From an uncultured Alphaproteobacteria bacterium (GTDB taxonomy: Bacteria; Pseudomonadota; Alphaproteobacteria; SP197): a stretch of 64,000 nt of DNA. Under the pieces are notes generated by a model that was not told where the DNA came from, ran no database searches, and saw only the letters and a program-made list of their open reading frames with translations. Location of the stretch: NCBI GenBank assembly GCA_943787175.1, contig CALSLK010000011.1, positions 1 to 64,000 on the forward strand. The letters are read 5' to 3'. Below, piece by piece: positions 59,983 through 63,866 of the stretch. Both the position numbers and the translations under genes were made by a program. Position 1 is the first letter of the stretch, and each line of letters opens with the position of its first letter.

Positions 59983-61009
59983 GTGACTTTTCATAATCTT
60001 CCCTATGGCGAACGCCTTGGGCATTTGCTCGCCAATCGCGAGGTGCTGATTGCCGATGGTGCAACCGGTACCAACCTCTTTGCCCGTGGTCTTGAAACCG
60101 GCGATGCGCCGGAACTCTGGAATGTCGACTTCCCTGAGCGGGTGCTCGACCATCACCAGGCCATGGTGCGTGCTGGTGCCGACCTCATTCTCACCAACAC
60201 CTTCGGCGGCACACGCCACCGCATGAAACTCCATAAGTTGCAGGATCGCGTGGCAGAGCTTAACCGTGCCGCCGCCGTTCTGGCCCGCCAGGCTGCCGAT
60301 GAAGCCGATCATCCCGTCCTTGTGGCTGGATCCATGGGCCCCACCGGTGAGATCATGCTGCCCGTGGGAGAGCTTGATCCCGATGATGCCGCCTCAGCGT
60401 TCGGCGATCAGGCAGAGGCTCTGGCCGATGGCGGTGCTGACCTGCTCTGGATCGAAACCATGTCGTCGACCGAAGAAGCCGCTGCCGCCATCAAGGGCGC
60501 AGCACGCACCGGTCTTCCCATTGTCTGCACCATGACGTTCGATACCAACGGGCGCACCATGATGGGCATCACGCCCGAAGGTGCTGCGGAATTTTATGCC
60601 GCAAGCCAACCGGGCCTGGCCGCGCTGCGGCGCCAATTGCGGCAACGGTTTTGGCGAACTGGTCGCTGCCGTCGCAGGCATTGATGCCGCCGCAGATGGC
60701 AGTCAGGTCCTTGTGGCAAAGGCCAATTGCGGCATCCCCGAATATGTCGATGGCGAGATTCGCTATACCGGCACGCCCGAGATCATGAAGAACTATGCCC
60801 GTCTGGCACGCGATGCCGGTGCACGCATCATCGGCGGTTGCTGCGGCTCGACACCTGAACACATCACCGCTCTGGTCGATGCCCTTCGGGATCATAAACG
60901 CCGTGAACGCCCCACGCTCGAGGTTATCGATTCAGAACTGGGCCTCTCACGGGTCACGCCCAAACCCGACGGCGAAACCCGCACGCGCCGCTCACGCCGA
61001 CACGCCTGA
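59983..61009 (+). CDS. betaine-homocysteine S-methyltransferase-like (BmtB/homocysteine S-methyltransferase family), one frameshift
   Basis: About 340 codons. Zinc-thiolate methyltransferase that moves a methyl group to homocysteine to give methionine. LIADGATGTNLFARGLETGD, ILTNTFGGTRHRMKLHKLQDR, VAGSMGPTGEIMLPVGEL, ANCGNGFGELV with the first Cys and ARIIGGCCGSTPEHI with the Cys pair. This is the style of the BmtB group annotated as using glycine betaine. An indel near 60622 breaks AALG-ANCGNG; the sequence after it is conserved, so the gene is probably intact. Donor could be betaine or another onium compound such as dimethylsulfoniopropionate. Confidence 0.85.
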
Positions 61010-61047: not shown

Positions 61048-62277
61048 CTAGCTGGTGGACATGCCAGGCGCCGGAGAGTCCCCCAGGCTGTCGACAAGCA
61101 TGAAATCTCCGACATCAAAGATGGCGGGATCCTTGGACGTGATGCAGACATCGCGCAGCGTCCTGATGAGCACGGCGGCCTGGGTTTCGAACCAGAACCA
61201 CTGCAACACGGCTTCTGACGACCCAGATCCCGGCTGTGCGGTTGCTGCTTCGAAGTAGTAGGCCTTGATATCCTCGGCAGACAGCCGCAGGGCATCGGCT
61301 ACTGCGACGCCTTCGAGCGGACTTTGCGTCATCATGTCAGCGGCAAAGCTGGCGAGGTAACGGGCCGCATCTTCGGTCTTGAGGCCCGAAGCGCCCACCG
61401 TGGTGCGCCCACGCAAGCCCAGACTGACCTCGTACCAGGGCGCAAGTTCCTGGATCTCGGCAAGCACCCTGTCGAGCTGTTCCCCTTCGCTGGCAGCGAC
61501 CGGCTTGGGGAAGTTCACCGGACAGACCCAGCCCTCACCGTCGTCGGCCACGGGATCGGCTGGAGCATCCTCGGGGAAGTCTTCAAGGATCGGACCCGAA
61601 GGTCGGTCGAGGAGCGCCAGCGCCGATTTCAGCACGCGGGTCTGGAACGGGGCATCGTTGGGCACGCCGAAGGGACGGCCCAGTGGGAACGGCACCCACA
61701 GCGCGCGCGGCGGCGACACGTCTTCAGCCTGCTGGCGCACAAGGGCGATCAGGGTTGTTGCAAGGCCTTCGTCTTCCAGAAACTTCGCGAGTCCGCTCAC
61801 GGCGCACGTGCAAAGGGGTCAGACGGGGGCCAGGACAACCGTGTTCACACCATCGGCCTTCATGACACCGGCGAGCTGGCGGGCCTTGGCCTCCATCTCG
61901 TTGGGGTTCGTCGCGCCCATGAAGGAGTAGTGGAAATCGGCCACGCTGCCGATCACGCCTTCTCCCGCCAGTTCCTGCAGCCGTTCCAGCGGGAAGACGA
62001 TGTTGACGTCATGATGGAAACCGGTGCGGTCGTGGGAGGTCGAGATGTGGTCCATCACGACGTCCCCGGCGCGTTCGGCGGGAATGGCCCGGTAATCGTT
62101 GGAGCCTTCGGAAAACGGGCGATCCCCCGGCAGTTTGAGACCGGCCGACGAAATCAGCGCGACGCGCCGTTCCCCTGGCGGTGGTGGTGTGACCCAGGCG
62201 TTCCCCGGCACATCCGGCGTTTGCCAGTCGCGCAGGAACGAGGCCAGGCCCTCATCCATATCTTCAAGACGAGCCAT
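61048..62277 (-). CDS. GrdB-family (glycine/sarcosine/betaine/D-proline reductase selenoprotein B-like) protein, candidate selenoprotein with in-frame UGA
   Basis: About 409 codons read through one UGA at 61821-61819 (codon 153). Part 1 (153 codons from ATG 62277; GGAG about 11 bases upstream) has RRVALISSAGLKLPGDRPF, VNIVFPLERLQELAGEGV, IGSVADFHYSFMGATNP, KADGVNTVVLAPV, all typical of the GRDB family. Directly after the UGA, in the same frame without indel, comes PLCTCAVSGLAKFLEDEG, then PPRALWVPFPLGRPFGVPN and a further C-terminal region to TAG at 61050-61048. UGA-P-L-C is a U-x-x-C redox motif at the family's selenocysteine position. Reductases of this family are reductive deaminases; the aerobic members' reaction is unknown. 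Downstream of the amidohydrolase, 55 bases apart. Confidence 0.8.
61783..61815 (-). promoter_or_regulatory. candidate bacterial SECIS hairpin downstream of the UGA
   Basis: On the minus strand, outer stem CTTTGC/GCGAAG (61815-61810 with 61788-61783, one G-U), internal loop, inner stem CCG/CGG with loop TGAG (61799-61796). The loop lies 19 nt after the UGA, has G at its second position, and so fits the general bacterial SECIS layout. Weak inner stem. Confidence 0.4.
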
Positions 62278-62332
62278 GAAATACGTCTCTCCAGCTTGTT
62301 CGCCTGTAGGGTGGTCCATGGGCGTGATGAAG

Positions 62333-63778
62333 TCAATTCACAGAATCGGTGGTTTCAAGAACCATGGGTGCCATCTGGTCGGTGCCGCGCCCGGCCCAGT
62401 CGCGCTCGGGCACGCGTGCCATCATGAGTTTCTGGGCCTCTTCAAGGCGTTCGAGTTCAACCGGCAGGTCGATGGTCGTGAGTGCGCCATCGGCGACGAC
62501 GCGATGGCCGTCGACATAAACGTCCCGCACGGCACGTTCACCGGCAACGACCATGAGACTGCGCAGAGGTTCACGCACCGGCATCATGGCGGGGTGCTTG
62601 AGATCGACGCTGACGAAATCGGCGCGCGCGCCCACGGCCAGGCGTCCAAGGTCATCCCGGCGCAGGGCTTTGGCACCGGCGATGGTCGCGGCATGGAAGA
62701 CATCGCCGTAGCTGAGGTCGGCCACGCTTTCGCCGATCACGCGGGCAGCAACGGCAGCCGTGCGCATCTCATCAAGCATGTTGTGGGGATAGGTATCGGT
62801 GCCCAGGCCCACATTGATGCCGTGGCGGATGTAGCCGCCAAGGGTGCGCAGGGTGATGCCCCGGCGCGAGAATACGGTGGGGCAATGTGCCACCGTGGCA
62901 CCGGAATCGCGCATGCGGTCAAGATCGCCACGGCTGGTCCAGTGCAGCCAGGGATGGTGATCCAGGAAGATGCAGTGGGCAATGATGCTGCGGTCGGTCA
63001 GAACACCCATGTCATGCATCCACTCAATCGGCGTCTTGCCGTGGCGGCGCTGCATTTCATAGAACTCGGTCGCCGATTGGGCGGCATGAATCGTCCAGGG
63101 CAGGTTGCGCTCTTCGGCATAGGCATGGCTGTCGCGCAGCAATTCCTCCGAACAGGTATCGACCTGGCTGGGCGAGACCATGCCCGAGAGGCGGCCCGAC
63201 GGGTGTTGATGTGCCAGATCGATGACGCGGCAGGCCGTCTCGAACCGTTCGCGACCGGCTTTTTTGTCCCAGTCGTATTTCAGCTCGTGGCCGTCATCGG
63301 TGTACCAGCGGGCATCGCGGAAGAAAGGTGCGGCAACTGCGCGGATGCCGCTGTCGGCCAGCGCATCGAGCCAGCCGTCAAACGGGCCGGAAAGATCGAC
63401 CACCGTGGTGACACCAGAAAGCAGCAATTCGCCCAGCGAAACGTTAAGGCAGGCGCGATGGCCGGCCTCGTCAACGGGATCAAAGACCGGAAGATGTTCA
63501 TAGAGTGAGCTGTGCCAAAAACCCGGCGAGCGGGTCTCGTCGGTAATGCCCTTGCGCATCGCCTCGCTCTGGGCGTGGGTGTGCACGTTGACCAGACCGG
63601 GCATGACCATGCGGTTGCGCCCATCGACCTCATGATCGGCATGGCCGTCATAAGCCTTGCCGACAAAGGTGACCGCACCGCCGGAAAACGCAAGATCTGC
63701 ATTGCGCAGATAGACGTGGTTCTGGCCGTCCCAGCCGACAAGCCAGGCGATGTTTCGAATGACGGTGGTTTCGGTCAT
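62333..63778 (-). CDS. amidohydrolase, cytosine deaminase/TRZ-ATZ-type
   Basis: 481 aa metal-dependent hydrolase of the chlorohydrolase/deaminase group. Metal motif NVHTHAQSEAMRKG near 60-73, GVTTVVDLSG near 118, HAAQSATEF near 225 with a metal His, IIAHCIFLDHHP near 260, and GTDTYPHNMLDEMR near 320 with the catalytic Asp. GGGGAG precedes ATG 63778. Members hydrolyse amino or halo groups from rings or purine-like compounds, for example S-adenosylhomocysteine deaminase. It is upstream of and on the same strand as the GrdB-like gene, so co-transcription is likely. Intact. Confidence 0.9.
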   Translation of the reverse strand: MTETTVIRNIAWLVGWDGQNHVYLRNADLAFSGGAVTFVGKAYDGHADHEVDGRNRMVMPGLVNVHTHAQSEAMRKGITDETRSPGFWHSSLYEHLPVFDPVDEAGHRACLNVSLGELLLSGVTTVVDLSGPFDGWLDALADSGIRAVAAPFFRDARWYTDDGHELKYDWDKKAGRERFETACRVIDLAHQHPSGRLSGMVSPSQVDTCSEELLRDSHAYAEERNLPWTIHAAQSATEFYEMQRRHGKTPIEWMHDMGVLTDRSIIAHCIFLDHHPWLHWTSRGDLDRMRDSGATVAHCPTVFSRRGITLRTLGGYIRHGINVGLGTDTYPHNMLDEMRTAAVAARVIGESVADLSYGDVFHAATIAGAKALRRDDLGRLAVGARADFVSVDLKHPAMMPVREPLRSLMVVAGERAVRDVYVDGHRVVADGALTTIDLPVELERLEEAQKLMMARVPERDWAGRGTDQMAPMVLETTDSVN

Positions 63779-63866
63779 GGTTTTCTCCCCAGGCGGCATC
63801 ATAGACATAGCCTTGCACCGTGAAAGCGTTGTCCGTTTCAGTCGACTGCCGTTATCGTCCTACCTC

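Follow-up and report, generated by a model that had tools for sequence, protein, structure and literature searches.

A probable selenoprotein gene of a long, partnerless PrdB/GrdB-like subfamily in an alphaproteobacterial genome

The minus-strand gene located at 61048..62277 of the window, as we call the whole stretch of 64,000 nucleotides that was analysed, very probably encodes a single selenoprotein, member of a long (ca. 400 aa) and partnerless subfamily of PrdB/GrdB-like proteins. This confidence refers to the encoded protein and leaves its substrate aside.

Reading frame, in-frame UGA and putative SECIS hairpin

The gene starts with an ATG at 62277, upstream of which the sequence GGAGAG (62287..62292, minus strand), similar to a Shine-Dalgarno element, is a probable ribosome-binding site, and it stops with a TAG at 61050-61048. 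The frame is interrupted solely by a TGA at 61821-61819 (codon 153), which is followed by six sense codons (CCC CTT TGC ACG TGC GCC) and by the GTG at 61800 with which the downstream open frame begins. The original prediction, that both open reading frames share one minus-strand frame with only the TGA and six codons between them, was exact in its coordinates, and the U-x-x-C motif that it described (...VVLAPV-U-PLCTC...) can be read in the joined translation of 409 residues. It was also right in that no indel is needed here, unlike in the other broken genes, since the breaks in those are frame changes and this one is a TGA. The plus strand carries at 59983-61009 a gene convergent with that of the selenoprotein and split over two frames, which by its sequence would encode a homocysteine S-methyltransferase-like protein. 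By itself, the split-frame geometry is weak evidence, no better than chance in this window: the GC-rich 64 kb contain 26 in-frame pairs split by a single TGA with at least 120 codons per side, and 15 with at least 150 codons per side. Because such a geometry is common in the window, the evidence must come from conservation.

The read-through protein matches, with identities of 96-56%, homologs from its own genus and family, as well as relatives across the class, relatives of the protein being present in 28 of the 276 alphaproteobacterial genera sampled; a long homolog was not found in the plasmid collection. In two paralogous groups of homologs (a and b), with identities of 96-37% to the read-through frame, the codon at 61819..61821 (minus strand), putatively read as selenocysteine (Sec), is TGA in every row read and never TAA or TAG. 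The genome of the window itself carries a paralog, 41% identical, with an in-frame TGA at the same place (G000 contig C6:85926-87038, L018/L020). TGA was the codon in 30 of the 31 first-round sequences, the exception (G013) having Cys in the alignment, and the survey of the class rendered TGC or TGT at the exact column in three long homologs (G151, G360 and G157) and a shorter one (G210), none of whose genomes has a tRNA-Sec. Such Cys-form homologs encode one continuous protein across the codon. A phylogeny of 49 proteins places the long Cys forms, all three, in one clade joined to a Sec form with 99/99 support, and the nesting of this clade inside the Sec forms points to a Sec-to-Cys replacement. 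The original prediction had proposed to look for Sec or Cys at codon 153 of other family members, and both a putative Sec codon and Cys codons do occur there.

Between the gene and its closest relative (G004), dN/dS was 0.024/0.38 before the UGA and 0.018/0.39 after it, indicating that purifying selection acts on both sides of the codon. Homologs ending at the UGA with nothing conserved beyond it, which had been named as evidence against a selenoprotein, are not what the class displays, the downstream part being conserved under purifying selection. Moreover, when 220 segments were compared in 13 orthologs, synonymous variation was lowest in the 13 codons that begin with the UGA (0.093 vs. 0.448 elsewhere, p = 9e-6), and the six codons from the UGA to the GTG, which contain the Cys motif, are invariant in the main group.

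A putative SECIS hairpin (61783..61815, minus strand) begins 3 nt downstream of the UGA, and is proposed on the basis of its MFE, covariation and synonymous constraint. Its lower stem pairs 61815-61810 with 61788-61783 and its upper stem 61807-61802 with 61796-61791, the latter with one G.G mismatch and otherwise 5 bp, all on the minus strand, as is the apical loop CGUGA (61801-61797). With this loop, located 17 nt after the UGA, and an MFE of -13.1 kcal/mol, the hairpin agrees with the rules for bacterial SECIS elements given in PMC13188914. In 22 distinct sequences, the covariation score of the hairpin register was 0.378 vs. 0.039-0.107 in slid registers, and 33 double-change cells were observed vs. 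13.4 in shuffles, which ignore the relatedness of the sequences. The stability of the single-sequence hairpin compared to shuffles was modest (z = -1.47), and a Rfam search around the UGA rendered nothing. Some shorter relatives (L039, L040 and L050), with a UPVCHQT or UPLDHQT motif, also carry the TGA; their upper stem is longer, and the core of the loop is likewise CGUG.

Selenocysteine machinery and gene neighbourhood

The original prediction was to be doubted if selB and selC were lacking from the genome. We found a tRNA-Sec (68.4 bits) and an intact selA, as well as recognisable selB and fused oxidoreductase-SelD genes on contig C31 (L017:4335-8564), both frame-broken in the assembly. Both selB and selD are intact in congeners, and the breaks may be assembly indels; if they were real, the strain would be without a working decoder, and the gene is nonetheless under purifying selection. 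In our counts, tRNA-Sec was accepted only above ca. 60 bits, the search at the default E-value matching every genome, probably through other tRNAs such as tRNA-Ser. Across the class, a tRNA-Sec was detected in 25 of the 27 UGA-form genomes, all except G276 and G377, vs. none of the five non-UGA-form genomes (Fisher p = 1e-4), in four of which the codon itself was read. Among 61 relatives, 13 of the 14 carriers of the gene had a tRNA-Sec vs. 3 of the 47 non-carriers (p = 1e-9), and in the 14th carrier (G006) the contig ends within selD. In G026, from the group of the shorter relatives, no tRNA-Sec scored above 60 bits. The claim that the gene makes a selenoprotein is therefore supported, by comparison, through the conservation of the codon, its replacement by Cys, the co-occurrence with tRNA-Sec, the coding constraint and the candidate SECIS element.

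The selenoprotein gene adjoins selD or the tRNA-Sec gene in many genomes, namely 13 of the 14 genomes of the family (selD) and 11 genomes of other families, in which the tRNA-Sec gene is 57-4850 bp away. The window's genome is an exception, with the sel genes on C31 and the selenoprotein gene on C11. An amidohydrolase gene of the TRZ/ATZ deaminase superfamily (62333..63808, minus strand; PF01979, 152.7 bits) is located 55 nt upstream on the same strand and is a probable operon partner. A genetic link to an amidohydrolase, as originally proposed, stood within the family, where such a gene neighbours the selenoprotein gene in 12 of 14 genomes, and did not extend to other families. An S-methyl-thiohydantoin-desulfurase-like gene is also near it in 10 of these 14 genomes and an oligopeptide-type ABC importer is common around it, but the set of amidohydrolase, desulfurase and importer was not seen again in the further families that we examined, which weakens this cluster as a definer of function. 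Thus, the wider linkage of the gene is to the sel genes and not to the amidohydrolase, and suggests that this gene is a main reason why some of these bacteria keep Sec.

The neighbours other than sel genes vary between families. In one Sec-form family, genes resembling glutathione S-transferase (GST) are found near the gene (L116:5276-5968, L119:1678-2370, L121:5470-6162 and L118:7773-8495), the scanned L116 copy matching GST. A related gene is present near all three long Cys-form loci (L107:5161-6012, L108:969-1892 and L109:3397-4326), its scanned L107 copy being a TauD/TfdA-family dioxygenase, and GST-like genes lie near two of the three, in a thin sampling. In G352, near a sel locus, the PrdB-like gene is adjoined by a thioredoxin-like gene and by one (L111:8709-8987, continuing past a TGA) for a UGSC-motif protein (ALAD-U-GSCTTCS) similar to the UGSC selenoproteins reported by the GOS survey.

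Protein family, possible chemistry and alternative readings

The protein consists of a PrdB/GrdB-like core, residues 35-223 (61609..62175, minus strand), which holds the motif U153xxC156xC158, and a C-terminal extension, residues 224-409 (61051..61608, minus strand), which is mostly helical in the model, matches no family and is present in the long homologs. The Pfam model GRDB (PF07355) matches residues 38-150 with 31.1 bits, above its gathering score of 22, a partial match limited to positions 227-345 of the 347 in GRDB, its C-terminal third. The NCBIfam model PrdB (TIGR04483) crosses the UGA, over residues 35-223, and its score rises from 63.6 bits with the first half to 95.6 with the joined protein, short of the 300 bits set for membership; the equivalog or exception cut-offs of TIGR01917, NF040794 and NF040795 (602-800 bits) are not reached either, the scores being 30-49 bits. 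The protein is a distant relative of PrdB and GrdB and a member of neither family as defined. Of the earlier statement that both halves match GRDB, the part on the first half stood, and the PrdB model does continue past the UGA to residue 223; on the other hand, the second half alone matched no family model, and residues ca. 224-409 lie outside the Pfam and NCBIfam models. Confident AlphaFold models of the full-length protein (pLDDT 85.4, pTM 0.86) and of the core (pLDDT 92.7, pTM 0.91) were obtained, in which U153 comes after a strand (146-150) and adjoins the start of a helix (154-169). Foldseek searches with both models found no PDB structure at E <= 0.001 and sequence searches of the PDB no convincing relative, so that no function can be drawn from the fold.

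According to the mechanism that we propose, the UGA would be decoded as Sec by SelB and tRNA-Sec under the direction of the SECIS hairpin. Sec153, at the start of a helix after a beta strand, could act as a nucleophile on a polarised C-X bond or another electrophile of a small substrate, Cys156 could be the resolving thiol that converts the selenium adduct into a selenenylsulfide, and cellular thiols would then reduce the latter. Both the substrate and the reaction are extrapolated from distant relatives, and the chemistry taken as a whole is tentative, a little on the doubtful side. Without a pyruvoyl partner, activation of the substrate would have to come by another route. It is doubtful that, within the family, the protein acts jointly with the amidohydrolase, the thiohydantoin-desulfurase-like protein and the oligopeptide-type importer in the breakdown of an N- or S-containing compound. 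A broader proposal is equally speculative, and we consider it unlikely: a distinct, stand-alone family of alphaproteobacterial selenoenzymes with aerobic potential, made up of a PrdB-like core and a new helical domain, with no pyruvoyl partner, which would be the resident client of co-located sel genes and catalyse a new Se-dependent cleavage, e.g., of thiohydantoin-like or other N/S compounds.

The main rival to a role in one catabolic pathway is that of a selenoprotein for general thiol/peroxide redox functions or detoxification, which is possible although on balance improbable. The differing neighbours in different families, the GST-like genes near one Sec-form family and two of three Cys-form loci, the thioredoxin-like and UGSC-family genes adjoining the G352 copy, and the U-x-x-C motif itself, a redox motif, would fit such a role; however, neither a thioredoxin-like nor any other PDB fold was retrieved at E <= 0.001, and the relatives of known function act on small molecules.

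In spite of the homology and the U-x-x-C motif, it is very unlikely that the protein is a true subunit of D-proline reductase (PrdB) or glycine reductase (GrdB) in Stickland fermentation. The equivalog scores are far under the cut-offs and the protein has a 185-residue extension. PrdA was not found in the 14 family genomes and five others, in a search that matched a control plasmid at 976.7 bits, nor was the Gly_reductase/GrdE-type subunit (PF09338) in any of 21 alphaproteobacterial genomes, with the control plasmid also matching. As no pyruvoyl subunit (PrdA/GrdE) was found, the enzyme is not expected to work as a reductase of D-proline or glycine, which fits the non-Stickland role originally proposed. 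The genome also contains a COX1 gene, and hence aerobic respiratory potential, which is at odds with such a fermentation; the part of the proposal that called the role aerobic is consistent with this gene, a trait of the genome and not of the protein itself. One COX1-like gene (G000:C5:193569-194840) is broken over several frames in the assembly.

Another reading is that of two distinct genes, or of an N-terminal protein (ca. 152-166 residues) that terminates at the UGA and precedes an unrelated or decayed frame. It would be compatible with the GTG that, directly after the UGA, opens a frame of 250 codons and with the abundance of TGA-split pairs in the window, but the continuous Cys-containing homologs of genomes without tRNA-Sec, the invariant codons that hold the Cys motif and the purifying selection on both sides make this reading highly improbable. 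A recent nonsense mutation or an error of sequencing, which the frame-broken selB, selD and homocysteine methyltransferase-like genes of the same genome might suggest, can practically be dismissed, since those breaks are frame changes and the same TGA recurs in dozens of other genomes, with Cys codons where tRNA-Sec is absent.

If the locus encodes one selenoprotein, as we favour, gene calling with table 11 cuts the gene at the catalytic residue, so that a selenoenzyme which many of the sampled alphaproteobacterial genera possess may easily be mis-annotated. Its Sec and Cys versions, which go with the presence or absence of tRNA-Sec, constitute a ready natural comparison, and the missing pyruvoyl partner makes the reaction a testable question.

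Comparison with known systems

PrdB and GrdB are listed among the known selenoproteins (PMC13188914). The protein described here shares with PrdB, the 26-kDa Sec subunit of D-proline reductase, a homologous core, aligned over residues 35-223, and Sec at the same column. Identity to PrdB of Terrisporobacter petrolearius (L123) is about 30%, the motif is UPLCTC here vs. UGTCHR, and the clostridial protein, of 241 vs. 409 residues, is without the C-terminal extension. PrdB has PrdA as a partner, whereas none was found for the window protein, whose TIGR04483 score is below the cut-off. The locus L123 (pTP2, NZ_CP102985.1) is a 21-kb plasmid with prdA, prdB, selD, selA and selB. With GrdB, GrdF and GrdH, the selenoprotein B of glycine, sarcosine and betaine reductases, the likeness consists of the PF07355 match above the gathering score and of Sec with a downstream Cys; the differences are the restriction of the match to the last third of GRDB, the absence of a GrdE-type subunit and scores far under the equivalog cut-offs.

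Sec-containing PF07355 proteins named PrdB, with a UxxC motif, were reported in 2005 and 2008 to abound in marine samples, with 42 genes from the Sargasso Sea and 235 from GOS (PMC1088965, PMC2398784). By that published description they resemble our protein in PF07355 homology and in the UxxC motif, and these sets probably include relatives of it. A selenoprotein of this kind is therefore already known since 2005. In the available parts of both surveys we found neither the C-terminal extension nor the lack of a partner nor the sel linkage described, and the subfamily, being long, partnerless and sel-linked, seems to be a new variant, no earlier description having been found in an incomplete coverage of the literature.

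For GrdB-type selenoproteins, an attack on a polarised C-N or C-F bond has been suggested (PMC10838667). FarB/FarE of Cloacibacillus porcorum MFA1 differs from our case in that it belongs to an anaerobe, has the FarE partner and lies in another gene context, but it likewise involves a GrdB-like selenoprotein, for which an attack on a polarised C-X bond without a pyruvoyl group has been proposed (PMC10838667).
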